A stretch of DNA of 25,995 bases from a virus, in the IMG/VR virus record IMGVR_UViG_3300046675_000452, positions 1 to 25,995 of that record, one strand, 5' to 3'. Below are positions 2 through 20,230 of the stretch, piece after piece. The notes beneath the pieces are model-generated. The model was not told the DNA's origin and did not search any database. It saw nothing but the letters and a program-made list of their open reading frames with translations. Positions within the stretch are counted from its first letter, which is position 1; the number at the start of each line of letters is the position of its first letter. The position numbers were made by a program, and so were the translations under genes.

Positions 2-3000
2 GTCGAGAACATGTCCCAGGCGATGGGTGTCCTGAACGGCATCGTCGGTACCGGTGACATGACGATGCAGAACCTGGCGGACGCTTTCGGAAACGGCATG
101 GTTGCCACTGTCAAGGGCTTCGGTCTCAGCCTGACAGATGTGGGTGCCGCTCTTGCCACATTCGGTGACAGTAATATCCGTGGTGCTAACGCAGGTACTC
201 AGCTCCGTATGTCCGTCATGGCTCTGGCGCACCCCGTGGCCACAGGCGCGGATGAGCTGAAGCGGCTGGGGCTTGAGTCTGACACCCTGTCCAAGGACAT
301 GCAGTCCGGTGGTCTCCTCAAGGCTCTGGAAGACCTTGAGTCGCACATGAAGAAGGCTGGTGTCAGCGCCAAGGAGCAGGGCGACGTCATCACTACCGTC
401 TTCGGCCGCAAGGCTGGCGCTGGTCTTAATGTCCTTCTCGACCAGATGGACCGCCTGAGGTCTAAGTATCCGGCTCTCCAGACCGCCTCCCAGCAGTTCG
501 GCAAGGACTGGGAGATTGCGTCCAAAACGTTCTCCGTCCAGGTGAAGAACCTGGAAGGCGGCCTTCAGGCGCTGATGATCACCATCGGCAACAAGTTGAT
601 TCCTTCTGTGCAGAAGCTCGTCAACCTCATGCTGAACAACAAGGGCGCTACCGTTGATCTGGCAGCGGCTTTTGCTGTTCTGCTCGGTGTGATCATCACG
701 ACCTCGCTGGCGATCAAGACATACAACGCTTATGTCTTGATCGCCGCAGGACTGAACAAGTTCTTTACAGAGACTGCTGTCGGCATGCGCGTTGCCACTC
801 TTGCTACGGCTGCGGCAACTAAGATATGGGCAGCTGTTCAACTGGTGGCGTCTGGGGTCGCCAGCATAGCGGTAGCTGCTTATGATGCCATCAGCACATC
901 GTTGATGTTCATGAAGGCCGCGTACGTCAACAATGGCCGTGGCTTCAGTGGCATGATGGCAGCCTTTTCGCAGCTGACACCACTCAAGGGTGTCAAGGAT
1001 GCCTTTAATGCCATGCGATTGGCCTCCGTTCAGGCTGGCGGGGGTATCGCCGGAATTCAGGCAGCATTTGCCTCTATGAGTACCGGGGCCAAGCTCGGCG
1101 GAACCATTGTTGTTATCGCTGGGCTTGTCCTCGCTCTGAAGAGTATTGCTGATCTGAGCAAGCAGGCTCCAGCGGACATTGACGCTCTGACTACATCACT
1201 CACCAATCTCGGCCGAACAGGTGCAGTATCCGGCGAAGCTCTACGTGTATACGGAAGTGACCTGAGCGGACTGATCGAGTCCCTCAAGTTCGATCCGTCC
1301 ACCATGAACGGATTCCAGCAGTTCTTCGATAAGGTCGGCAGCGGATTCGGACTTTTCGGTGACACACTGAAGGAGACCGCAGAATCCGACATCAAGCCTC
1401 TTGACCAGGCTCTCGCTAATCTTGTCCAGAGTGGTCATGCAGATATCGCCGCAGCCGCCCTGAAGAAGGTCATTGATGCGGGCGCAAAGACTGGTACGAG
1501 TGCGGACAAGATCAAGAGTCAGCTGACCCAGTACAACAATGCGCTAGACGGAACCAAGACCGCCAGTGACCTTGTTGCGGACTCTCAAGGCAAGTTCGGT
1601 GAGGCTGCGCAGAAGGTTCAGACGAATCTCGCAGCTCAGAAGAAGGTGGCCGATGGTCTCCGCGAGTCTCTTCAGGCGCTTGATGCTGTCAATCAAGCGG
1701 CGTACGGCTCGGAGACAGCGTTCTATCAGGCCATCCACGACCTGAATAAGGGTCTCAAGGACAATGGTAAGACGCTCAACGTCCATACCGAGGCCGGTCG
1801 TAAGAACCGTACGCTGATCCAGAACATGGCGGCGGCTACTGATGACCTGACAGCGAAGATGGCCGACCAGCACCGTTCATGGACTTCCATCAACAAGAAG
1901 TACGACGAGGGCTACAAGGCCCTTGTCAAGGCTGCGCGCGGTATGGGTGACACGAAGGAGGAGGCGGACAAGCTCGCGAAGTCGCTTCTTCACCTCCCCA
2001 AGGACACCACCGTTGCCCTCAAGACCAACGCTGACGTCATCCAGGAGAAGATCGACAAGCTCAAGGCGAAGATGCGCAGTCTTCCACCGAGCCAGCAGGT
2101 TTACATCAAGGGTCAGATCAAGGACCTGGAAGCGAAGCTGGCTCAGGCCAAGGCTGACATTGCCGGAGTCCACGGCAAGACCGTGACGCTCTACTCCAAG
2201 TACGTCAGTGTCGGTAAGCAGCCTGGTACCGGAACCGTTCTCAAGGCTGCGGGCGGATTGCTCAGTGGTCCTGGCACCGGGACTTCGGACGATATTCCTG
2301 TCATGGCGTCCAATGGTGAATACGTCATCACCGCTGCCGCCGTCCAGAAGTACGGACCCAGGTTCCTGGACGCCCTGAACAGCAGGTCCCTCCCGGCACT
2401 CGCCAGCGGTGGCGGTGTCAGCAGCGGTGAGAAGTCTGCCCGGAGCGGAGCGGCCGGACAGTTCGGTATCTCGTTCTTCGGAAGGATGGCTGGATACCAG
2501 CGGAATCCTTTCGAGAGTTCCACAGCGAACGCCGGATCACTGAGCGAGCTTGTCAACACCTTGAATCAGTGGCGCTCCACGATCAAGCAGGCTCTGCACG
2601 GAGCGCAGGAATCCAGGCTGCTGGAGCACCTGACCAGTTTCGGCAGGAGCATGATCGCGCACGAGAAGGCTCTCACCAAGGTAAACGCCGCATTGGACGC
2701 GGCGAAGACCAAGTTGTCGAGCCTGAAAGACGCGGCGGCGCAGCTGAAGGACTCCGTGTCCTCCGGCATCATCTCCGGCGCGAACATCACCGGGACAGCC
2801 CAGGCAAACGGTCTTACGTCCACTGGCCGCATTCTCGACCAGCTCACCCAGGACCGTGACAAGGCGCAGTCCTTGGCCGGTGCCCTGGCGGAACTCAAGA
2901 GCCGTGGCCTGAACAGCCAGTCGCTCAGCGAGATCGCACAGGCTGGCGTATCCGGCGGTGGCCTGGCTACTGCCTCCGCGCTGATGTCGGCTTCGGGTAG

Positions 3001-3484
3001 CGACATCCAGCAGATCAACCAGCTGGAAGCTCAGCTCAAGGGATCCGCCACGGCCGCTGGTAAGACCACAGCGGACGCGATGTATGCCGCGAGCATCAAG
3101 GGTGCCGACAAGGTCGTCAGGAGCCTGGAGAAGCACCAGGCGGCCCTCGTGAAGGCGATGGACCGGCTGGCCAAGCGCATGGAGACGCTGATCGAGAAGG
3201 CGTTCCACATCAACGGGCATGCTGCCGGTGGAGCTGCTGGCGGCTGGTCCATGATCAATGAGATGGGCGCGGAACTCGTGCACCTTCCGAACGGCTCGAC
3301 AGTGTACCCGGCCGGTCAGTCCCGGCAGATGATGTCCCGACATGGCGGCTCGAACGAGCCGATCGTCATCAACCTGGAACTCGGAGGTAAGCACTTCGAG
3401 CAGATCTGGGTGGATACCGGCCGCCGCGCGGTCCGTACCCGTGGCGGAAACGTTCAGGTCGCTCTCGGCCGTCCAGGATCGTAA
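2..3484 (+). CDS. Tape measure protein, C-terminal part (5' truncated by window edge)
   Basis: The frame enters from the left edge without a start, so only about the last 1,160 residues are present. Tape measure proteins set tail length and occupy the tail lumen before DNA ejection. The visible N-terminal part carries the Gly/Ala-rich core typical of TP901-type tape measures (NLADAFGNGMVATVKGFG near the left edge). Hydrophobic, membrane-like segments lie at about residues 213-236, 265-300 and 355-380, followed by long Ala/Lys-rich helices (about 640-725). Two copies of the Gly-rich motif seen in tape measure C termini occur: a GxSDDIPVMASNGEYVI type near residue 760 and MGAELVHLPNGSTVYPAGQ near 1090. 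It is followed by an intrinsic terminator and then tail genes, the usual siphovirus order. Confidence 0.93.
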   Translation, partial: VENMSQAMGVLNGIVGTGDMTMQNLADAFGNGMVATVKGFGLSLTDVGAALATFGDSNIRGANAGTQLRMSVMALAHPVATGADELKRLGLESDTLSKDMQSGGLLKALEDLESHMKKAGVSAKEQGDVITTVFGRKAGAGLNVLLDQMDRLRSKYPALQTASQQFGKDWEIASKTFSVQVKNLEGGLQALMITIGNKLIPSVQKLVNLMLNNKGATVDLAAAFAVLLGVIITTSLAIKTYNAYVLIAAGLNKFFTETAVGMRVATLATAAATKIWAAVQLVASGVASIAVAAYDAISTSLMFMKAAYVNNGRGFSGMMAAFSQLTPLKGVKDAFNAMRLASVQAGGGIAGIQAAFASMSTGAKLGGTIVVIAGLVLALKSIADLSKQAPADIDALTTSLTNLGRTGAVSGEALRVYGSDLSGLIESLKFDPSTMNGFQQFFDKVGSGFGLFGDTLKETAESDIKPLDQALANLVQSGHADIAAAALKKVIDAGAKTGTSADKIKSQLTQYNNALDGTKTASDLVADSQGKFGEAAQKVQTNLAAQKKVADGLRESLQALDAVNQAAYGSETAFYQAIHDLNKGLKDNGKTLNVHTEAGRKNRTLIQNMAAATDDLTAKMADQHRSWTSINKKYDEGYKALVKAARGMGDTKEEADKLAKSLLHLPKDTTVALKTNADVIQEKIDKLKAKMRSLPPSQQVYIKGQIKDLEAKLAQAKADIAGVHGKTVTLYSKYVSVGKQPGTGTVLKAAGGLLSGPGTGTSDDIPVMASNGEYVITAAAVQKYGPRFLDALNSRSLPALASGGGVSSGEKSARSGAAGQFGISFFGRMAGYQRNPFESSTANAGSLSELVNTLNQWRSTIKQALHGAQESRLLEHLTSFGRSMIAHEKALTKVNAALDAAKTKLSSLKDAAAQLKDSVSSGIISGANITGTAQANGLTSTGRILDQLTQDRDKAQSLAGALAELKSRGLNSQSLSEIAQAGVSGGGLATASALMSASGSDIQQINQLEAQLKGSATAAGKTTADAMYAASIKGADKVVRSLEKHQAALVKAMDRLAKRMETLIEKAFHINGHAAGGAAGGWSMINEMGAELVHLPNGSTVYPAGQSRQMMSRHGGSNEPIVINLELGGKHFEQIWVDTGRRAVRTRGGNVQVALGRPGS

Positions 3485-3488
3485 TTCG

Positions 3489-3520
3489 GCGGCTGGCGTG
3501 TAACAGCGCCAGCCGCTTTT
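3489..3520 (+). terminator. Intrinsic terminator after the tape measure gene
   Basis: A perfect 10-bp stem (GCGGCTGGCG at 3489-3498 with CGCCAGCCGC at 3507-3516), an 8-nt loop and a TTTT run at 3517-3520 lie just after the tape measure stop codon. This is a textbook rho-independent terminator on the plus strand. It may be leaky, since the downstream tail genes continue in the same direction. Confidence 0.8.
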
Positions 3521-3540
3521 CGCAGAGGGAGATACGACTC

Positions 3541-4050
3541 GTGCCGTACAAGATTTTCAATGCGGCTATGGCCACGACTGCGGCGACAGCCAAGGTCACC
3601 ACGGGCACGGCCATCAAGACAATGCTACAGATCGCCACACCGGCTACCCGCCAGTTCCAGGTCATCTCGTGGGGATACACGTGCGATAACGCACCGACCT
3701 CCTCCTCAGTTGTCGAACTGCTCCAGACAGACGTGGCAGCCACTGTCACGGCGCATGTAGCATCCGGTGTCCAGCCCATCGATCCGAATGGCACTGCATC
3801 CCTCTTGACACTGGGAACCTCCGCAACCGGCTACACCGCCACAGCAGAGGGCACGACAACCGCTTCCCGCATCTTTGACGCAGTGGAGATTCCGCCGTCT
3901 TCGTCTGGTGCTGCTGGCCTGTGCTACTACCAGCAGTTCATGCCGGATGAGCGGCCGATTATCCCCATCTCGAAGTTCTTGCGCGTGCGCGTGACATTTG
4001 GCAGCGCCGTGAATATGCTGTGCTGGGTTACTGGCATTGAGGTGGGATAA
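3541..4050 (+). CDS. Minor tail protein (hypothetical)
   Basis: A 169-residue protein starting at GTG, with GAGGGAG about 9 nt upstream. No catalytic motif is visible. It is rich in Thr, Ala and Ser with alternating hydrophobic residues, consistent with a beta-rich virion protein, and has no signal peptide or membrane segment. Its position directly after the tape measure gene and 3 nt before the next tail gene argues for a distal-tail or minor tail component. I recognise the positional pattern from actinobacteriophages but no named domain, so the function is inferred from context. Confidence 0.7.
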   Translation: MPYKIFNAAMATTAATAKVTTGTAIKTMLQIATPATRQFQVISWGYTCDNAPTSSSVVELLQTDVAATVTAHVASGVQPIDPNGTASLLTLGTSATGYTATAEGTTTASRIFDAVEIPPSSSGAAGLCYYQQFMPDERPIIPISKFLRVRVTFGSAVNMLCWVTGIEVG

Positions 4051-4053
4051 CAC

Positions 4054-6324
4054 ATGACCAGCGGTCTCGCTGCGCGGCTGGACGGATGGCGGCGTTGGCG
4101 TGGTGCGTGGGTCAGCCCACCTGCCGCGTCAGGCGAGGCCAGCAATGGCAATCCCGTTCAGGCAGAGTTGTACCTCAACGGCGTCTGGACGGACATCACG
4201 TCGTACATCATGGTGCGCGACAACTCCGGCAACATCGCTATCACTAAAGGCCAGCCGAACGAGAGCACCCTGCCGGACAAGTCCACCTGTACTTTCCTGC
4301 TGAACAACCGGGACGGCAGGTTCTCCCCGCGTAACCCATCTGGCGCTTACTACGGTCTTATCGGTCGCAACACCCAATTCCGTATCAGCGTCCCCTTGAA
4401 CACGGGGAAGAATTACCGGTTCTGGGGCGAGATCTCCGAGTGGCCGCAAAAGTGGGACACCACCGGAACCGACATCTGGGTGGAGGTTCAGGCGTCAGGG
4501 CCGTTTCGTCGTCTCAGCCAGGGACGCGCTCCGACGAAATCCGTATTGTATGAGGCCTTCACTGACGGCTCCCTTGGGACCTTCCAGGAGTACTGGCCGT
4601 GTGAAGACCCGGTGGATTCAACTCTGGTTGTATCGGCGCTGGTCAACCATTCGCCCATGACGATCTCCGGGGCTCCGGTCTTTGCCGCGTTCGACCAGTT
4701 CCCCACATCGGATCCGCTGCCGACCATGACAGGTGCGCAGTTTACTGGTGGGGTAGCCAAGTACGACAACCCCACAGCCACGCAGGTTCGCTTCCTGCTG
4801 TTCATTCCGGCAGACGGCGCGCCAGACGGCAAGGTCATTTGTCGGATCGCGCAAGAGAATAGTTCAGCTACCACAGGATTTTGGGAACTTGTCTACACTA
4901 CAGGCGCCAGTGTACTTCCCCTGGGGTCGATAAGCCTGTACCAGCTCGACGGTGACGGCGCCCAGCTGGGGATCACCCTTGATTATCCGCATGATGTCCG
5001 GGGCAAGCTAGTTCGGGTTTCCATAGAGCTGGAGGAAAGTGGCACGAGCATCACTCGTGCTCTGCGTGTTCTCACCCTGGGAGACACCGAAGCAGTTAGT
5101 GTCACAGATACAGCGTCACTTACAGCGCTCACACGAGTTCTCTCTATTGACATGTGTCCGGACTCAATTGCCGCAACAGTCACTCACCAGGGACGGGGAC
5201 TCACCAACGGTTCAGTAGGTCACGTCACTCTCCAGACTTCGATTACCTCTGTGACGGATCTCGGCCTGCGTTTCGACCCGATCGGGGAAGTCGCCGGACG
5301 CCGCATTCAGCGCGTATGCAGCGAGCACGCCATTGCTTTCGACAGCATCGGTAACCTGGACAACACCGAAGCGATGGGCAACCAGACCAAGCTGAAGCCT
5401 CTGGACCTCATCAACGAAGGCGCTGCCGCCGATCTCGGAATCGTCTATGAGAATCTCAACGCTCTCGGAGTCGGCTACCGGACCAGGGAATCCCTGTACA
5501 ACCAGGATGCCGCGCTGACTCTGACGTACGCGTCCGGCCAGCTCTCCGAGATCCCTCTCCCAACAGATGACGATCTCCTCAGTCGGAACAGCATCGCGGT
5601 CACCAACAGCAGCACGAGTAACTCATCCACAGCGGAGCAGACAACGGGCACGCTCTCCACACAGGACCCACCCGTGGGTATCGGCGTGTATGGCGAGTCC
5701 TCGTCCATCAACGTGGCCTCGGATACGCAGTTGCCCAACCAGGCTTACTGGCGGCTGAATCTGGGAACGGTGGATGAGGCGCGGTACCCGCAGATCTCCG
5801 TCAACCTGGCGCACCCGCAGTTCGCCAATAACGTTGCGCTGAAGAATGCCGTTCTGTCCCTGCGAGTAGGCGACAGAATTGATCTCATCGGTCCTCTTCC
5901 CCAGCAGGCACCGGATAACATTTCGGTGCTGGTGGTCGGATTCTCCGAAACCATCACGCATTTTGAGCACCGGCTGACATTCAACTGCGCTCCGGAAAGC
6001 CCCTGGCGGGTCGGGGTCGTGGAAGATTCTGTCCTTGGGCGACTGGACACGGCAGGATCGACGCTGGCAGCAGATGTCACTTCTGCCGATGTGACGTTCA
6101 GCGTGACTACGACGTCCGGGCCGGTGTGGATCGACTCGGCCACCTACCCGACGCACTTTCCATTCGATGTGCGTCTCAGTGGCGAGACCGTCACCGTCAC
6201 CGCCATCACCAGTACCACCAGCCCGCAGTCTTTTACCGTGACTCGCAGCATCAACAGTGTCGTCAAAGCCCAGACGGCAGGCACCGCTATCAGCCTCGCC
6301 ACCCCGACGCTCATAGCCCTGTAA
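4054..6324 (+). CDS. Large minor tail protein
   Basis: A 756-residue protein whose ATG follows the previous stop by 3 nt, with GAGGTGGG upstream. The region around residues 30-110 contains a motif common in actinobacteriophage tail proteins: WTDITSYIMVRD, then a pairing of K-Q-P-N-E and STCTFLLNNRDGRFSPRNP, then a GxNTQFRISV strand. This suggests a distal-tail or baseplate-hub-like beta domain. The middle (about 170-330) resembles a beta-sandwich with spaced aromatic residues and could be carbohydrate-binding. The C terminus is Thr/Ser-rich. It probably belongs to the tail tip and may contact the host surface. Tail assignment is strong from context; the exact role is not visible. Confidence 0.82.
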   Translation: MTSGLAARLDGWRRWRGAWVSPPAASGEASNGNPVQAELYLNGVWTDITSYIMVRDNSGNIAITKGQPNESTLPDKSTCTFLLNNRDGRFSPRNPSGAYYGLIGRNTQFRISVPLNTGKNYRFWGEISEWPQKWDTTGTDIWVEVQASGPFRRLSQGRAPTKSVLYEAFTDGSLGTFQEYWPCEDPVDSTLVVSALVNHSPMTISGAPVFAAFDQFPTSDPLPTMTGAQFTGGVAKYDNPTATQVRFLLFIPADGAPDGKVICRIAQENSSATTGFWELVYTTGASVLPLGSISLYQLDGDGAQLGITLDYPHDVRGKLVRVSIELEESGTSITRALRVLTLGDTEAVSVTDTASLTALTRVLSIDMCPDSIAATVTHQGRGLTNGSVGHVTLQTSITSVTDLGLRFDPIGEVAGRRIQRVCSEHAIAFDSIGNLDNTEAMGNQTKLKPLDLINEGAAADLGIVYENLNALGVGYRTRESLYNQDAALTLTYASGQLSEIPLPTDDDLLSRNSIAVTNSSTSNSSTAEQTTGTLSTQDPPVGIGVYGESSSINVASDTQLPNQAYWRLNLGTVDEARYPQISVNLAHPQFANNVALKNAVLSLRVGDRIDLIGPLPQQAPDNISVLVVGFSETITHFEHRLTFNCAPESPWRVGVVEDSVLGRLDTAGSTLAADVTSADVTFSVTTTSGPVWIDSATYPTHFPFDVRLSGETVTVTAITSTTSPQSFTVTRSINSVVKAQTAGTAISLATPTLIAL

Positions 6325-6912: not shown

Positions 6913-7764
6913 ATGGCACTGCATTACATCGAACAGCGTCCCCTGCCCGATCGCGGCCTCGGACGCCATGTCCATCACGATCCGCGTTCCCTGGGATACG
7001 CCCACGGTGTGCTGCCGAAGTCGGCGATCAAGTCGGTGGATTGGACGCGGCGGGCGGCAATTTTCAATCAGGGAAACCTTGGGTCCTGCACGGGAAATGC
7101 CGCCACCGGACTCCTGGCGACTGATTCCGCAGGCCGGGTGGCCTCCACAACAGTATTCATCACAGCCGCCGGAGCTGCCGCATCCCACGGTCTTTTCACC
7201 AACGCCTCGTACGTTCTGGATGAGGCTTTCGCTGTCAAGCTGTACAGTCTCGCGACGATCCTGGACAGCTACGCAGGGCAGTACCCGCCGACCGACACCG
7301 GTTCCTCGGGTATCGGCGTGGCGAAGGCTCTGAAGGCACTGGGGCTGGCTTCCAGCTACACGCACGCCTTCTCCCTGGCTGCACTGACCTCCGCGCTCCA
7401 GAGCGGTCCTGTGATGATCGGCATCCCCTGGCTGAACTCGATGTTCTCGCCCGGAGTCGACGGCCGGATCCTGGTGGACGAGATCTCGGGAATCGCTGGC
7501 GGTCATGAGATCGCCCTGACCGCATACGACGCTGCCACCAACGAATACCGCATCGACAACTCGTGGGGCACCTCATGGGGAGTCGGCGGATCCGGGTACT
7601 TCTCAGCCACCGACCTGACATGGCTGCTCTCCCAGCAGGGCGACGTCACTGTTCCCGCCTGGACAGCCGCGCCAACTCCTCCACCAGCACCCGTGCCGAC
7701 AGGAATCACGGCGGCTGAGCTGGCGAACAGCGTGCGCGCGCTCTTCACGTCGCAGGGTGTGTGA
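6913..7764 (+). CDS. Papain-like (C1A) cysteine peptidase
   Basis: A 283-residue protein. I chose the ATG at 6913 because GGGGAG lies 7 nt upstream; the longer frame from 6865 would overlap the preceding gene. The papain-family active site is complete: oxyanion-hole Gln53 and nucleophile Cys59 in [12 protein letters not shown], His198 in [11 protein letters not shown], and Asn216 in the hallmark DNSWGTSWG. The papain core spans about residues 40-235. A Pro-rich linker ([11 protein letters not shown]) leads to a short C-terminal helix. No signal peptide is seen. It lies 12 nt before the endolysin gene, so it may act in lysis or be carried in the virion to cut host surface protein. Family assignment is firm; the substrate is unknown. 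Confidence 0.9.
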
Positions 7765-8970: not shown

Positions 8971-9224
8971 TGGCCCAGCCTGTAGACAGCATCGCAATCG
9001 AGCTGGAGCGTCTACGGGGCACTTGCTCGGAAGGTTTCGCACGGATCAACGGCCAGCTCGACGTTTTAGTGGAACGATCAGACCGCACCGAGAGAGATCT
9101 CGAAAAGCTCCAGAACAGAGTTAATGCTCTGGAGCGGGCTCGGTGGGCAGCAGTAGGTGCTGGAACAGTCCTGGGGGTCGCCTCAGGAATTGTGTCCAGC
9201 ATCCTGAGTAACGCAGGGAAGTGA
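8970..9224 (+). CDS. Second holin-like protein: coiled coil plus one membrane helix
   Basis: An 84-residue protein whose ATG overlaps the previous TAA. Residues 5-55 form a charged heptad-patterned coiled coil (LERLRGTCSEGF...LEKLQNRVNALER), followed by a single C-terminal membrane helix (AAVGAGTVLGVASGIVSSIL). This coiled-coil plus single-TM layout is common for the partner of the two-TM holin in actinobacteriophage lysis cassettes. It may be an antiholin, a second holin or a membrane-associated accessory; the sequence does not decide. Confidence 0.7.
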   Translation: MAQPVDSIAIELERLRGTCSEGFARINGQLDVLVERSDRTERDLEKLQNRVNALERARWAAVGAGTVLGVASGIVSSILSNAGK

Positions 9225-15610: not shown

Positions 15611-15817
15611 CTACGTGCCGTCCGGAACGAAGTACAGACCGAACGAATCCTCAGGCACGTCCAGCATGAGGCTGACGTACTGCCGCGCCATCTTCTCCGG
15701 CGTGTCCTCCGGGTAGTTCACGTGGGTCTGGGTGCTGCCCACACCATGGATGTGCAGCACCAGGCCATGTTCCCATGGCTGGGTGGCTACGGAATACACC
15801 TTGATCTCAGGCGGCAT
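15611..15817 (-). CDS. Small hypothetical protein (68 aa) coupled to Ro60
   Basis: The start at 15817 has GGGAGG 6 nt upstream and overlaps the last codons of the Ro60 gene, so it should be translationally coupled to it. The 68-residue product (MPPEIKVYSVATQPWEHG...) looks like a small alpha/beta domain with a beta-strand pair VLHIHGVGSTQTHV and a helix EDTPEKMARQYVSLML. No catalytic motif is seen. Coupling suggests it may act with Ro60, but nothing in its sequence shows how. Confidence 0.65.
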   Translation of the reverse strand: MPPEIKVYSVATQPWEHGLVLHIHGVGSTQTHVNYPEDTPEKMARQYVSLMLDVPEDSFGLYFVPDGT

Positions 15818-17516
15818 CCGGAACCTCCCACATCCAGCAGCCATTGATCCCGTTTTCCAGGCGCTCGATCTGGAGTGCGGCATCGCCAGTCAGGCCGCCG
15901 AGAGTGAAGCGGCCCTTGTGTCCGGTGTTCATCGCGCCTGCCTTGTAGCCCGCCATGTTCCATACGAAAACTGGAACGTTCAGTGGGATGTACGCATCGA
16001 TCGATGTCTCCACGACACGACCGCTCATATTGGAGGGCAGGTACCCCGGCCGGGTCTGCTCGTCGGTGACGATGACGACGCGGTCGTGATTGGCGTAGTG
16101 CTTCTTGATCGCCGACGGGATGTCCGTGCCGTTGCTCTGCCCGAACGCCTCGCCCACCATCTTCAGCACGCTGCCGCCCTTGGGCACCGCGATCTCCTGG
16201 GACTCCCCGCCGAACTCCACCAGCGTCGGAGCCTGTGCCCGCAGAGCCAGTGTGGAGCCGAAGACGGCCGCCTGGTCCGCCAGTGAGATGTCCGACTTGT
16301 TGGGGGTGGAGAAGTAGTAGCCGGGGAACATGCTCGGGCTACGGTCCACCAGGATCAGGGTGCGGCCGGTCAGCACCGGGATCTGCCGGAGTGAGATCTC
16401 CAGCGCCATCTCCAGCGCCTGCGCCCAGCGCAACGATTTGGTGTGCTTGAACGCCGAGAAGAACCGGTAGGGGAACTGGCGGCTCTTCAGCACCTCGGTC
16501 TCGTCCACCAGCCGCGCGACGACGGCGTTGGCGACCTTGTTGCTGACGCCCGCCTCATCGAAGTTCCTGAGGTTCTTCAGGAGAGCGCCGTATCCCATGG
16601 ATGGGATCATGGCTTCCCACAGCTTGGCCTTGTCCACCTTGCTGCCGACAGCCGAGAACGCGTCCTCCCAGGTCATGCCCGCAGCCTTGAGAGTGTCCGG
16701 GTTGCACCAGGAGTTCGGATTGGTATCCGCGCGCAGAAGCCGATTCCAGTGCACCATGTGCAGAGAATCAGGAATGTCTTCGTCCCGGCTGTGACGGCGG
16801 TCGATGGCGTGCTTGAACAGGTCGTACTGCCAGACCTTGCCGTCAGCGGGCTTCGGGTGGCACAGCTCCAGCACATCCGCAAAGCGCACTGAATGCGTGG
16901 CGGTGTCGTACTTGAGCATGGAGTACTCGTTGTACAGCCGCTTCGCCGCATCCGCCACGCCACGCTTGATCGGCTGCGGAATCTTCGGTGCCTTGCCAGG
17001 ACGCTCCACGCCGTACTTCGCGAACCAGTACGCCAGCAGCTCGCCCGGCTCGTCCGCACGCTGGCAGACCTGGTCGATCAGGCGGCGGTTGGTGATCGGC
17101 GTCCAGGCGGTGAACTCGACAGGCACGGAAACGCGCGTGCCTACAGCGCCATGCTCACCGGCTTCCAGGCGCGCGTGGACAGCCTCTACCGCAAGCATGA
17201 TGGGAGCGGTGCGCATGTTGCCCTTGGCACGCAGCCAGGTGAGGAAGCCAAAGACCCAGTCGAAATCCTCGACGGCCATCTGACGGATCAGCTCGATGGC
17301 ACGGGCGTCACGAGCAGTCGCGGACTCGTGGAACTTGCCCTCCATGCCCAGGAAACCGCCAGCCGCCAGGAGGTACAACTCCGCCTGCGCTTCGCGCTCC
17401 CAGCCCTGTGCACCGAGCGCCGTATGCAACGTCGGCTGCTCGGTGGACGAGCGGATGGGGCTGGTCACCGCCAGAACGGCGGGCTTCATCTGAACGTTAC
17501 GGTTGAACTTGGACAC
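15807..17516 (-). CDS. rsr: Ro60/Rsr ortholog (TROVE + vWA RNA-binding protein)
   Basis: A 569-residue protein. I place the start at GTG 17516, 6 nt after GGAAGGAAAG; the longer frame to 17615 would run into the tRNA-like element. The TROVE module (helical repeats, about residues 10-375) includes LWEAMIPSMGYGALLKNLRN and FRFFSAFK-like helices that in Ro60 form the RNA-binding ring. The vWA domain (about 380-569) has an intact metal site: DRSPS (Asp391, Ser393, Ser395), Thr464 in GTDIPSAI and Asp485 in IVTDEQT. Ro60 proteins bind misfolded RNAs in the ring and Y RNAs on its outer face; in bacteria Y RNA tethers Ro60 to exoribonucleases such as PNPase. Six Y-RNA-like genes lie directly upstream on the same strand. 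Confidence 0.92.
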   Translation of the reverse strand: MSKFNRNVQMKPAVLAVTSPIRSSTEQPTLHTALGAQGWEREAQAELYLLAAGGFLGMEGKFHESATARDARAIELIRQMAVEDFDWVFGFLTWLRAKGNMRTAPIMLAVEAVHARLEAGEHGAVGTRVSVPVEFTAWTPITNRRLIDQVCQRADEPGELLAYWFAKYGVERPGKAPKIPQPIKRGVADAAKRLYNEYSMLKYDTATHSVRFADVLELCHPKPADGKVWQYDLFKHAIDRRHSRDEDIPDSLHMVHWNRLLRADTNPNSWCNPDTLKAAGMTWEDAFSAVGSKVDKAKLWEAMIPSMGYGALLKNLRNFDEAGVSNKVANAVVARLVDETEVLKSRQFPYRFFSAFKHTKSLRWAQALEMALEISLRQIPVLTGRTLILVDRSPSMFPGYYFSTPNKSDISLADQAAVFGSTLALRAQAPTLVEFGGESQEIAVPKGGSVLKMVGEAFGQSNGTDIPSAIKKHYANHDRVVIVTDEQTRPGYLPSNMSGRVVETSIDAYIPLNVPVFVWNMAGYKAGAMNTGHKGRFTLGGLTGDAALQIERLENGINGCWMWEVPDAA

Positions 17517-17560
17517 GGCGATCTTTCCTTCCGCACCAGTAGGTTGGTGAGCCATTACAG

Positions 17561-17648
17561 AGGAGCTGGCGGGGTTCGAACCCGCTTGGCTTTGAAGTGA
17601 TCTAAGCCTACTCACCAGAACGCCGGGGGATCAGTCCCGACCAGCTCC
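17561..17648 (-). ncRNA. tRNA-like element without a normal anticodon arm
   Basis: On the minus strand an 8-bp acceptor (GGAGCTGG/CCAGCTCC), a D-arm-like hairpin (CGGG-ACTGATC-CCCG) and a perfect T-arm (GCGGG-TTCGAAC-CCCGC) are present in normal tRNA order. The 35-odd nt between D- and T-arms form no 5-bp/7-nt anticodon arm; the options are GGTGA/TCACT or GGCTT/AAGCC, both with 11-nt loops. It ends 44 nt before the Ro60 start. It may be a degenerate tRNA, an unusual tRNA, or another Ro-associated RNA; it holds GGTGAGTA and CTTAGATC, loosely like the Y motifs. Confidence 0.5.
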
Positions 17649-17663
17649 ATGTCAGCCCCGTTA

Positions 17664-17805
17664 CCGGATCCCCGAGTTCAAGTCTGCTGCTCCATGTTAC
17701 GTGTGCTAGGCCGCTAACACCATGAGGACTAAGCCCCAGTGGGATTCGAACCCACGCCCCGTCCTTGATAGGGAAGTAGGAGAAGCATGCGCACCGGGGA
17801 TCCGG
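17664..17805 (-). ncRNA. Y RNA 6 (Ro60 partner), with tRNA-like module
   Basis: The ends pair perfectly over 10 bp (CCGGATCCCC, 17805-17796, with GGGGATCCGG, 17673-17664). Just inside are GGTGCG (17795-17790) and TGAACTC (17680-17674), shared with the other five. A second stem (TGCTTCTCC/GGAGCAGCA, one mismatch) closes a tRNA-like module: T-arm GTGGG-TTCGAAT-CCCAC, a closed acceptor-like hairpin TGGGG-CTTAGT-CCTCA, and a D-arm-like hairpin GTGTTAG-CGGC-CTAGCAC that is more divergent than in Y1, Y3 and Y4. Confidence 0.75.
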
Positions 17806-17808
17806 CTG

Positions 17809-17900
17809 GATGACAGCGTACCCGAGATCAAGGACTCCAGCGCTTCGGTTTCTTTTGCAGAGAAGTAAGCGCCAAATACGCACCGGGTACCGCTGTCATC
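17809..17900 (-). ncRNA. Y RNA 5, without tRNA-like module
   Basis: The ends form a 16-bp stem with one bulged G: GATGACAGC plus GTACCCG against CGGGTAC plus GCTGTCATC. The GGTGCG (17884-17879) and TGATCTC (17830-17824) motifs face each other just inside. The interior is only a hairpin (GCGCTT/AAGCGC) with an A-rich loop, with no T- or D-arm. It begins 5 nt after tRNA-Glu and ends 3 nt before Y RNA 6, so all probably come from one precursor. Confidence 0.75.
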
Positions 17901-17905
17901 AAACG

Positions 17906-17980
17906 TACCGCTAGTGGGATTTGAACCCACGATCTTCGCCTTGAGAGAGCGACGAGCTTTCCAGACAGCTCCATAGCGGC
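17906..17980 (-). tRNA. tRNA-Glu (CTC)
   Basis: Minus-strand cloverleaf in normal order: acceptor GCCGCTA/TAGCGGT, D-arm GAGC-TGTCTGGAAA-GCTC, anticodon arm TCGCT-CTCTCAA-GGCGA, T-arm GTGGG-TTCAAAT-CCCAC; discriminator A. Confidence 0.9.
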
Positions 17981-17985
17981 TGGTG

Positions 17986-18012
17986 CTAGGTCCAGGGTTC
18001 AACCCTACCCAG
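17986..18012 (-). other. Hairpins in the Gln-Glu tRNA spacer
   Basis: In the 95-nt spacer, CTGGGT-AGGG-TTGAA-CCCT-GG-ACCTAG folds into a 10-bp hairpin with a GG bulge directly before tRNA-Glu, and CCAGG/CCTGG forms a second one near 18033-18050. Its loop side reads TTGAACCCTGG, close to the Y-RNA 3' motif, but no matching 5' GGTGCG partner is present. It may be a decayed Y RNA or a processing hairpin. Confidence 0.35.
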
Positions 18013-18075
18013 AAGCATGGGGTTCGCGCGGACCAGGCGGGCCCTCCTGGCGATCGACCAAGAGGTGCTTCATCG

Positions 18076-18148
18076 CTGGGGTACCAGGACTCGAACCTGG
18101 AATCTTCTCGTCCAGAGCGAGACGGATTGCCAATTCTCCCATACCCCA
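18076..18148 (-). tRNA. tRNA-Gln (CTG)
   Basis: Minus-strand cloverleaf: perfect acceptor TGGGGTA/TACCCCA, anticodon arm TCTCG-CTCTGGA-CGAGA, T-arm CCAGG-TTCGAGT-CCTGG; discriminator G. Confidence 0.93.
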
Positions 18149-18153
18149 CTAAG

Positions 18154-18224
18154 AACCGCTGACGGGAATCGAACCCACACTTTCACTTTGGAAGAGTGAC
18201 GCGCTACCACTACGCTACAACGGC
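18154..18224 (-). tRNA. tRNA-Gly (TCC)
   Basis: Minus-strand cloverleaf: acceptor GCCGTTG/CAGCGGT (two wobbles), anticodon arm TCACT-CTTCCAA-AGTGA, T-loop TTCGATT; discriminator T, usual for tRNA-Gly. Confidence 0.92.
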
Positions 18225-18227
18225 TTG

Positions 18228-18599
18228 TTACTCCAGACGTTTCCGTGATCTTCTATCACGAGATCGTTTCGCATTAGCGGCACGACACTCATCGCAGTGA
18301 CACCCGGCCTCATATCGCCGACGCGTGCCATGGCCGCCCCACCCAAGCTCATTTTTAGTTTTCTCCCAATGACAGGAACGGCAGAGAACTTGGCATTTAG
18401 CCAATTCAACTACTCGACGTTCTTCCGACCATGACCAAACATTGTGGCTGATCTTATGTGCGGCGTGTATGTGATCCAGCTCAAGATCATCATCGCTACC
18501 ACACTGCACACATACCTTGCCTGAGAAGAATTCTGACCTAATCGAGGCAGCCCGCTCACGCGCATGTTGACGCCGTTTATCCACATCTTTGTACGGCAC
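18228..18599 (-). CDS. HNH endonuclease (free-standing, homing-type)
   Basis: A 123-residue protein starting at GTG with GGGAG about 10 nt upstream. A basic N-terminal helix (KDVDKRRQHARERAA) precedes the HNH core: zinc-binding C30xxC33, catalytic LDHIH (Asp42-His43), SHNVWSWSEERR, and C73xxCH77 in CQVLCRSCHWEKT. A second small zinc cluster (C100-H-C-x-x-C105) and a basic tail follow, probably for DNA contact. It sits between tRNA-Gly and Y RNA 4. It is a clear paralogue of the protein at 19769-20155. Such enzymes spread by cutting alleles that lack them; tRNA-rich regions are common sites. Confidence 0.88.
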   Translation of the reverse strand: MPYKDVDKRRQHARERAASIRSEFFSGKVCVQCGSDDDLELDHIHAAHKISHNVWSWSEERRVVELAKCQVLCRSCHWEKTKNELGWGGHGTRRRYEAGCHCDECRAANAKRSRDRRSRKRLE

Positions 18600-18659
18600 T
18601 GCCAGAGTTCTCCCGATTGAAAGGCCGCCGAGATAGGCCGCTACTCTACGAGGATATGA

Positions 18660-18774
18660 TCATGTCCGAGATCAGAGCGGAAACTGAGTGCTCTACCAGT
18701 TGAGCTACAGGCCCAAGAGCGGGCCCGCATGGAGTTGAACCACGAAGGAACAGCGTCCAACGCACCGGACATGA
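18660..18774 (-). ncRNA. Y RNA 4, with permuted tRNA-like module
   Basis: The ends pair over 9-10 bp (TCATGTCCG/CGGACATGA). The motifs GGTGCG (18766-18761) and TGATCTC (18674-18668) lie just inside. The second stem is GGACGCTG/CAGTTTCC with one mismatch. The module then reads T-arm CGTGG-TTCAACT-CCATG, a closed acceptor hairpin CGGGCCC-GCTCTT-GGGCCTG (7 bp), TA, and D-arm GCTC-AACTGGTA-GAGC. This is tRNA order starting at the T-arm, with acceptor strands joined by a 6-nt loop, so no free 3' CCA end is possible. Confidence 0.82.
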
Positions 18775-18779
18775 CGTCT

Positions 18780-18922
18780 GTGTGCCAGAGTTCAAGGCAT
18801 CGTCGGGCTTACTCACATGCTCTACCCGCTGAGCTACCCAAGGGGACTACCCGAGGGACAGGATTCGAACCCGTGACCTTGTGACCCAATTGAAGGATCC
18901 GACGACTACGCACCTGGCACAC
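18780..18922 (-). ncRNA. Y RNA 3, with permuted tRNA-like module
   Basis: The ends pair perfectly over 9 bp (GTGTGCCAG, 18922-18914, with CTGGCACAC, 18788-18780). The motifs are GGTGCG (18914-18909) and TGAACTC (18794-18788). The second stem TCGTCGG/CCGACGA is perfect. The module has T-arm ACGGG-TTCGAAT-CCTGT, an acceptor-like hairpin CCCTCGG/CCTTGGG with two mismatches and a 7-nt loop, and D-arm GCTC-AGCGGGTA-GAGC. It ends 5 nt before Y RNA 4. Confidence 0.82.
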
Positions 18923-18943
18923 GATTCAGTTTTCAATGTTCAA

Positions 18944-19016
18944 CGGCAGAGATCAAGCTGACCAGCGGGTGTGATTTCATCAATTGAAGTACCCGCCAGA
19001 TCGAACGCACCTGCCG
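18944..19016 (-). ncRNA. Y RNA 2, without tRNA-like module
   Basis: A compact RNA of about 73 nt. The end stem CGGCAG/CTGCCG (6 bp, possibly longer with a TTC/GAA extension) encloses GGTGCG (19011-19006) and TGATCTC (18955-18949). The interior stem GGCGGGT/ACCCGCT is capped by an A/T-rich loop containing TTCA/TGAA. No T- or D-arm is present, as in Y RNA 5. It lies 8 nt after Y RNA 1 and 21 nt before Y RNA 3. Confidence 0.72.
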
Positions 19017-19024
19017 AAGTCTTT

Positions 19025-19184
19025 ACTGAAGATATCGCCCGAGTTCAAATCGGTTCCGCGTTCGTAGGTGCTCTGCCAACTGAGCTACAGAGGAAATCTC
19101 TCTCCCCCGACGGGACTCGAACCCGTGACCACCCCATTAACAGTGGAAGAATTCGAAACCTGCGCACCGGGCAACATCTTCAGT
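19025..19184 (-). ncRNA. Y RNA 1, with permuted tRNA-like module
   Basis: The end stem is ACTGAAGAT/ATCTTCAGT (9 bp), a small internal loop, then GCCCG/CGGGC. The motifs are GGTGCG (19168-19163) and TGAACTC (19047-19041). The second stem is GGTTTCG/CGGAACC. The tRNA-like module is T-arm ACGGG-TTCGAGT-CCCGT (19126-19110), a closed acceptor hairpin CGGGGGA/TTCCTCTG-type with a 7-nt loop, and D-arm GCTC-AGTTGGCA-GAGC (19085-19070). It starts 33 nt after the coiled-coil gene, so it is probably first in the Y RNA precursor. Confidence 0.82.
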
Positions 19185-19768: not shown

Positions 19769-20155
19769 TCATTCCTGTTCTACTTGGCGCAACTTTCTGC
19801 GTGCATGGTACTGTCGCGCCCGTTTCGCTCTTGCCTCCGTGCACGGTGCACAACGACATCCCACATTGTACGTACTTGGCTGGCCATGAAGAAGCCACCC
19901 GAAGTCACTGCAAGTCTTGTCCCGGTGACATGCGTGGCACAAAACTTGGCACTTCGATAGTTCTTCATTCATGCGAGTCAGAGACCACGACCACACATTG
20001 TGCGATACTTTTTCCGCTGGGTTTATGTGATCAACCTCAAGTTGATCAATTGCCCCACAATGAACGCAGAACTTTTCCAGCATCCAGTCAGCGCGTCGTC
20101 TGGCAGCGCGAATTCTTTGATACTCACGCTGCTTATCTGGATCCTTGTACCCCAT
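19769..20155 (-). CDS. HNH endonuclease, paralogue of 18228-18599
   Basis: A 128-residue protein. The ATG at 20155 aligns with the start of the paralogue (MGYKDPDKQREYQ versus MPYKDVDKRRQHA), so I reject the longer frame through the tRNA. The HNH core matches residue for residue: C30xxC33, VDHIN (Asp42-His43), SHNVWSWS, CQVLCHACHRDKT, then C100-R-C-x-x-C105. It begins two bases after the 3' end of the initiator tRNA gene, with no ribosome site unless within the tRNA itself. Together with the other copy it brackets the Y RNA 1-4 cluster. Confidence 0.87.
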   Translation of the reverse strand: MGYKDPDKQREYQRIRAARRRADWMLEKFCVHCGAIDQLEVDHINPAEKVSHNVWSWSLTRMNEELSKCQVLCHACHRDKTCSDFGWLLHGQPSTYNVGCRCAPCTEARAKRARQYHARRKLRQVEQE

Positions 20156-20157
20156 AG

Positions 20158-20230
20158 TGGCGGAGGCAGGGCTCGAACCTGCGACCTCTGGGTTATGGGC
20201 CCAGCACGCTACCAACTGCGCTACTCCGCG
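20158..20230 (-). tRNA. Initiator tRNA-fMet (CAT)
   Basis: Minus-strand cloverleaf: acceptor CGCGGAG/CTCCGCC with a C1xC72 mismatch, anticodon arm CTGGG-CCCATAA-CCCAG carrying the three consecutive G-C pairs of initiators, T-arm GCAGG-TTCGAGC-CCTGC; discriminator A. An unpaired 1-72 position plus the GGG/CCC stem are the defining initiator features. Confidence 0.88.

Follow-up and report, generated by a model that had tools for sequence, protein, structure and literature searches.

The stretch of DNA analysed here (the window) is an IMG/VR virus fragment of 25,995 bases, for which a search of the phage collection found no close DNA relatives. On its minus strand, a gene for a Ro60 protein has upstream of it six stem-closed RNA elements (17664-19184), all of which were confirmed. 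The features of the locus are listed below in the order of transcription, with the elements numbered as predicted Y RNAs.

19025..19184, minus strand: Y RNA 1, with a tRNA-like body and an outer stem of 17 bp; UUCUUC at 19146-19151
18944..19016, minus strand: Y RNA 2, short type without a tRNA-like body; UACUUC at 18986-18991
18780..18922, minus strand: Y RNA 3, with a tRNA-like body; UCCUUC at 18892-18897
18660..18774, minus strand: Y RNA 4, with a tRNA-like body, the shortest of the four; UCCUUC at 18744-18749
18228..18599, minus strand: HNH endonuclease gene (phrog_4234, E 9e-38)
17905..18224, minus strand: three genuine tRNA genes (Glu, Gln, Gly) within the array
17809..17900, minus strand: Y RNA 5, short type; UACUUC at 17862-17867
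17664..17805, minus strand: Y RNA 6, with a tRNA-like body whose D-arm is divergent; UACUUC at 17773-17778
15807..17555, minus strand: Ro60 (TROVE and vWA), by PF05731, phrog_850 and an AlphaFold fold match

The HNH gene and the three tRNA genes divide the array into four and two elements, a division that had been missed in the original prediction. A second HNH endonuclease gene, which like the first belongs to phrog_4234, lies beside the RNA cluster at 19769-20215 (minus strand); both are possibly homing genes, of which the one at 18228-18599 splits the array. The tRNA set of the phage is large, with 21 ARAGORN calls, one of them within Y RNA 1. In addition, an unusual tRNA-like RNA was observed at 17561-17652 (minus strand), just upstream of Ro60, which is built from an acceptor-like stem of 8 bp, a hairpin with a CUGAUC loop, a central arm and a T-arm. 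It has a counterpart of about 74% identity at 3908-3999 of another locus of our collection (L023), there too just before Ro60, and is partially conserved at about 330-456 (minus strand) of a further one (L263); its sole Rfam match is to tRNA-Sec, sub-threshold at 25 bits.

The original prediction had taken the adjoining gene for a TROVE gene, and its domain, its fold and its Y-RNA-contact histidine identify it as a true Ro60. The TROVE domain (PF05731) scores 60.1 bits against a Pfam cut-off of 23. The AlphaFold model of the protein (pLDDT 81, pTM 0.80) has the fold of a HEAT-repeat ring with a vWA domain, and all 13 of its PDB matches at E<=0.001 are Ro60, Rsr or TROVE entries, including the Ro60 proteins of Thermus phage phiLo, Xenopus, human and Deinococcus. 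Two invariant residues of the window protein, K215 and H233, coincide in a profile alignment with K170 and H187 of Xenopus Ro, of which K170 is a residue that matters. In mammals, Ro60 carrying H187S shows no Y RNA binding (PMC11277228). The start of the Ro60 protein is more likely the GTG at 17516, preceded by GGAAGGAAAG, than the codon at 17555, because proteins of the Ro60 family begin with MxKFN.

All six elements carry GGTGCG on the 5' side and TGA(A/T)CTC on the 3' side, just inside a self-pairing terminal stem, and lie exactly where the original prediction had placed them. A scan of the window for this motif pair with a closing stem of at least 6 bp gave six matches, which are the six elements, and shuffles of 19 loci gave 0.2 matches in total. 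The outer stems of the six are unrelated in sequence; the build is common, and consists of the variable outer stem, the internal loop GGUGCG/UGA(A/U)CUC, an inner stem and, directly after the inner stem, a CUUC element. This element reads UACUUC in most relatives, and in the window UACUUC (three copies), UCCUUC (two) or UUCUUC (one). In four of the six elements there is a tRNA-like body, in which a T-arm, an acceptor-like hairpin, the dinucleotide UA and a D-arm follow each other in an order permuted as in YrlA, with the Y stem occupying the place of the anticodon arm. The body of the two short copies (17809-17900 and 18944-19016) is a small hairpin. Neither the CUUC element nor the division into tRNA-like and short copies had been recognised originally. 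According to PMC4030889, Y RNAs have a conserved bulged C. Of 335 elements, 311 have the C of NGCG, and the invariant C in GGUGCG of the window may be either bulged or paired.

The relationship of the six elements to each other and to RNAs elsewhere was assessed with two covariance models, R1 for the short form and R2 for the tRNA-like form, which were built from other phages and bacteria without any window sequence and which together recover all six. R2 matches Y RNA 1 (19036-19173, 111.2 bits, E 4.5e-24), Y RNA 3 (18783-18919, 97.2 bits, E 7.4e-21), Y RNA 6 (17669-17800, 74.7 bits, E 1.1e-15) and Y RNA 4 (18663-18771, 74.3 bits, E 1.3e-15), and R1 matches Y RNA 5 (17819-17889, 57.4 bits, E 4.3e-12) and Y RNA 2 (18944-19016, 46.6 bits, E 1.9e-9); a seventh copy was sought in the window with both models and none was found. 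The Rfam model of YrlA matches three of the six at 31-38 bits, namely Y RNA 4 as a full-length match (37.8 bits, E 2.9e-6, the best of the three), Y RNA 1 over its tRNA-like core (35.6 bits) and Y RNA 3 (31.5 bits), with none reaching the gathering cut-off of 69 bits. The Rfam model of animal Y RNA (RF00019) has no match at E<=5 among the six elements. The Y RNA reading stands up to the computational checks that had been proposed along with the original prediction, with the correction that the nearest relatives are the bacterial, YrlA-like RNAs that mimic tRNA and not the animal ones.

The original prediction had also read the differing stem sequences as covariation, and this covariation proves real across lineages. 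In RNAalifold alignments of 47 tRNA-like and 42 short relatives, none of them from the window, compensatory changes are present in 23 of 31 and 7 of 13 pairs, respectively. Since the short relatives had been selected with a stem requirement, a set of 192 elements picked independently of the stem offers a fairer test of pairing. The arms pair (at least 5/6 Watson-Crick) in 95% of these elements, compared with 23% after swapping arms between elements and 2.6% after swapping them within a locus.

The association with Ro60 extends well beyond the window. In Ro60 loci collected from phage records, IMG/VR and GTDB genomes, Y RNA elements were found beside Ro60 in the window and in more than 150 loci, including those of phages of Streptomyces and of Gordonia, Arthrobacter, Caulobacter, Brevundimonas, Xanthomonas, Microcystis and Bacillus, where R1 and R2 also find copies; the same RNAs are thus present at the other phage Ro60 loci to which the original prediction had pointed for a check. 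Inspection by eye of isolated actinophages placed elements upstream of Ro60 in Kela (3), Quantum (3), GiJojo (5), BRock (4) and VanLee (4). No convincing Y-like array was seen in archaeal virus HGTV-1, Vibrio phage pv27, a 635-kb uncultured phage or a Desulfovibrio phage. A structure-free word count in the 600 nt upstream of Ro60 (164 loci) has TACTTC as its top hexamer, with 370 occurrences against 18 expected, followed by GGTGCG, TGATCTC and words of the T-loop/T-arm and D-arm. A structural descriptor anchored on TACTTC gave 356 matches on the Ro60 strand, 27 on the opposite strand and 12 in shuffles, and 263 of the 356 lie within 500 nt before Ro60. Conversely, a search of IMG/VR by RNA patterns alone returned 102 stretches, 86 of which have a Ro60 gene on the same strand within 2.5 kb, at a median RNA-to-Ro60 distance of 256 nt. 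The internal-loop pair is common to the copies within one phage and different between phages, for instance GAUGCG/UUUUCUA in BRock, AGCG/UUGG in Kela and UGGCG/GUUCC in CcrPW. Coevolution of this loop motif with Ro60 was considered and rejected: the loops become more alike as Ro60 identity increases (Mantel r 0.41), yet the outer stems do so too (r 0.54), and therefore shared ancestry explains the trend and no coevolution is claimed.

Several further observations were made in individual genomes. In the gut phage crAss001 (L283), an unannotated region downstream of TROVE (about 3440-4160) contains TACTTC four times in similar surroundings (e.g. GTGTA...TACTTC), and two of these sites pass the hairpin descriptor; this pattern suggests a Y RNA array in this crAss-like phage. 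In Bacillus phage G (L018), five Y-like elements precede the TROVE gene and two are farther off (2970-3666, 1498-1653 and 9077-9147), of which only the element at 1498-1653 appears tRNA-like. In Streptomyces phage Frankenweenie (L004), an annotated tRNA-Pro at 4763-4853 overlaps a Y-like RNA upstream of Ro60, so that the tRNA annotations of phages may include some Y RNAs. In two other Streptomyces phages (L009 at 6967-7199, L010 at 7079-7242), matches to manA RNA slightly below the gathering score lie among tRNAs near Ro60. Finally, virus contigs of up to 64 kb (L181, L190, L194, L208, L220, L234, L247 and L262) carry Y-like elements and no TROVE gene in the fragment; these viruses may be incompletely represented by their contigs or may depend on another Ro60.

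With the window entered at its verified six copies, the descriptor counts across 162 distinct Ro60 loci show two copies to be commonest (61 loci) and two or three to be usual, with a mean of 2.5 and a maximum of 7; these counts are approximate, as the descriptor misses copies visible by eye (e.g. in Kela and Frankenweenie) and adds a few false ones (e.g. the most distal match in L037). An antisense control of the count gave zero in 146 loci and at most two in the rest. Six or seven copies occur in four of the 162 loci, the window included, and six is therefore rare, not unique. The original prediction had called six copies in one short cluster exceptional; the window indeed stands near the top of the range, but Caulobacter phage CcrPW is counted at seven and two other virus contigs at about six, where two to four are typical. 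In most related phages and bacteria, Ro60 comes with a small Y RNA array, and the cluster of the window is real and large for its kind.

The anatomy of the elements, their covariation and homology, their linkage to Ro60 and the identity of this Ro60 lead us to propose that the locus holds six Y RNA genes in an array whose RNAs serve the phage's own Ro60 as gates and adaptors, a reading to which we give a probability of roughly 85%. The identification as Y RNAs, made in the original prediction, is supported computationally by the Ro60 identity, the YrlA matches and the new models. In the proposed mechanism, each RNA would be transcribed separately and its ends would form a clamp stem. The predicted Ro60 binding site is the internal loop GGUGCG/UGA(A/U)CUC with its flanking helices, and the CUUC element would mark the junction to the body. 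Stem and loop would serve as a common socket, and the variable part would be the bodies, of which four are permuted tRNA mimics and two are small hairpins. If Deinococcus and Salmonella are a guide, the bound RNAs would keep Ro60 stable and act as a gate to its ring, and their bodies may tether it to partners such as PNPase or tRNA-handling enzymes, so that several adaptors could be fitted to one Ro60 during infection. In Deinococcus, a Y RNA tethers Rsr to PNPase in the decay of structured RNA (work summarised in PMC7790460), and a survey of jumbo phages groups TROVE proteins with RNA repair (PMC7824862).

The job of the bodies is also where a live alternative, or addition, to this mechanism differs from it, the two otherwise overlapping. 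The Y RNAs might serve mainly to decoy anticodon nucleases or tRNA-modifying enzymes of the host, as a counter to tRNA-cutting defences, with Ro60 merely stabilising them. PMC7790460 puts forward the possibility that YrlA competitively inhibits an anticodon nuclease, and the tRNA mimicry of four copies and the large tRNA set of the phage would suit such a role; the mimic, however, is without an anticodon arm and two of the six copies have no mimic at all, and we consider decoy action unlikely to be the main function. Still less probable, in our judgement, are cis-acting stem-loops, i.e. a leader or attenuator by which Ro60 would regulate its own mRNA. The usual position of the elements, on the same strand and just upstream of Ro60 (median 256 nt), would fit such a leader. 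In Atuin, crAss001, the Microcystis phage and Thermus phage phiLo, however, most of the elements are found on the downstream side of Ro60; several contigs of viruses have the elements but, within the fragment, no TROVE gene; and two to seven bodies of two kinds exceed the needs of a leader. That the elements are decayed tRNA genes or chimeras of such genes, originating in the tRNA cluster around them, their Y RNA likeness being incidental, we reject as hardly credible in spite of the T-arm and D-arm segments in four copies, the real tRNAs between copies and the ARAGORN call of tRNA-Asn at 19102-19174 inside Y RNA 1, because the arm order is permuted (T-arm before D-arm) with the anticodon arm absent, the acceptor-like stem is loop-closed and covarying, the Rfam tRNA model gives that miscall 18.2 bits and none of the six elements a complete cloverleaf above its threshold of 29 bits, two copies are without a tRNA part and the Y-type stem is kept in hundreds of copies.

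If the array does provide Y RNAs to the phage Ro60, a wider, tentative picture may be drawn, which we think possible but would not favour. Such loci could be modular adaptor cassettes, in which Ro60 is combined with diversified Y RNAs whose clamp stems are mutually non-complementary and whose near-universal UACUUC docks a common partner (e.g. an exonuclease or Ro60 itself), some viruses carrying the RNAs only and borrowing another Ro60. Cross-pairing within arrays amounts to 31 perfect cases, compared with 84.7 +/- 11.4 in type-matched shuffled arrays, an expectation that is inflated because stems in different loci are homologous. The cleaner comparison of short with tRNA-like elements gives about 3% against 7%. 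That neighbouring stems avoid cross-pairing is suggestive only, as judged from these sequences.

To our knowledge, work on bacterial Ro60 proteins and their Y RNAs has covered very few organisms. Y RNAs at Ro60, with tRNA mimicry, were known from bacteria and mycobacteriophages (Chen et al. 2014, RNA 20:1715, as related in PMC12282133). Like YrlA (RF02553) and other bacterial Y RNAs, the window RNAs lie at Ro60 and have an outer stem, an internal loop, an inner stem and a permuted tRNA-like body; unlike YrlA, they score below the Rfam cut-off, have another loop motif and a UACUUC element absent from the Rfam consensus, and occur as six copies with unrelated stems. In Salmonella, with its YrlA and YrlB, a tRNA-like form likewise lies next to one that is not tRNA-like, as in the window. 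The Rsr-Y RNA-PNPase system of Deinococcus radiodurans joins Ro60 with a Y RNA, as is proposed for the window, and its protein has the same fold (2nvo). With vertebrate Y RNAs (RF00019) the elements share paired ends that form a stem with bulges, in the window the predicted Ro60-binding stem, and GGUGCG/UUGA of the window presumably resembles GGUCCGA/CUUGAC of animal Y RNA, as the original prediction had noted; the bodies, however, are unrelated. Among phages, Listeria phage CKA15 has highly transcribed ncRNAs near an Rsr homologue, which have been proposed as Y RNAs with the same role (PMC12282133), the only direct precedent that literature searches for phage Ro60 with Y RNA brought up. CKA15 and the window, likened by description only, both have phage RNAs near a Ro60-like gene, for which the basis is transcription in CKA15 and comparative structure in the window. 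The Ro60 of Thermus phage phiLo (PDB 9l5y), a phage Ro60 of solved structure, is among the best PDB matches of the window protein; unlike in the window, the candidate Y-like hairpins of phiLo lie downstream of its Ro60 gene. As far as checked, the breadth of the arrays, the UACUUC element, the possible avoidance of cross-pairing and the Y-like RNAs on virus contigs without Ro60 are new.

Two models and a motif code now define phage Y RNAs and catch the short forms that the Rfam model of YrlA misses. In actinobacteria and their phages, Ro60 is as a rule accompanied by a multi-copy array, and such arrays are also present in phages of other phyla. Two features of these arrays can be tested, i.e. 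the near-universal UACUUC and the possibly insulated clamp stems. If the array is indeed a set of interchangeable adaptors, a phage would offer a compact system in which to ask what Ro60 is linked to by its Y RNAs.
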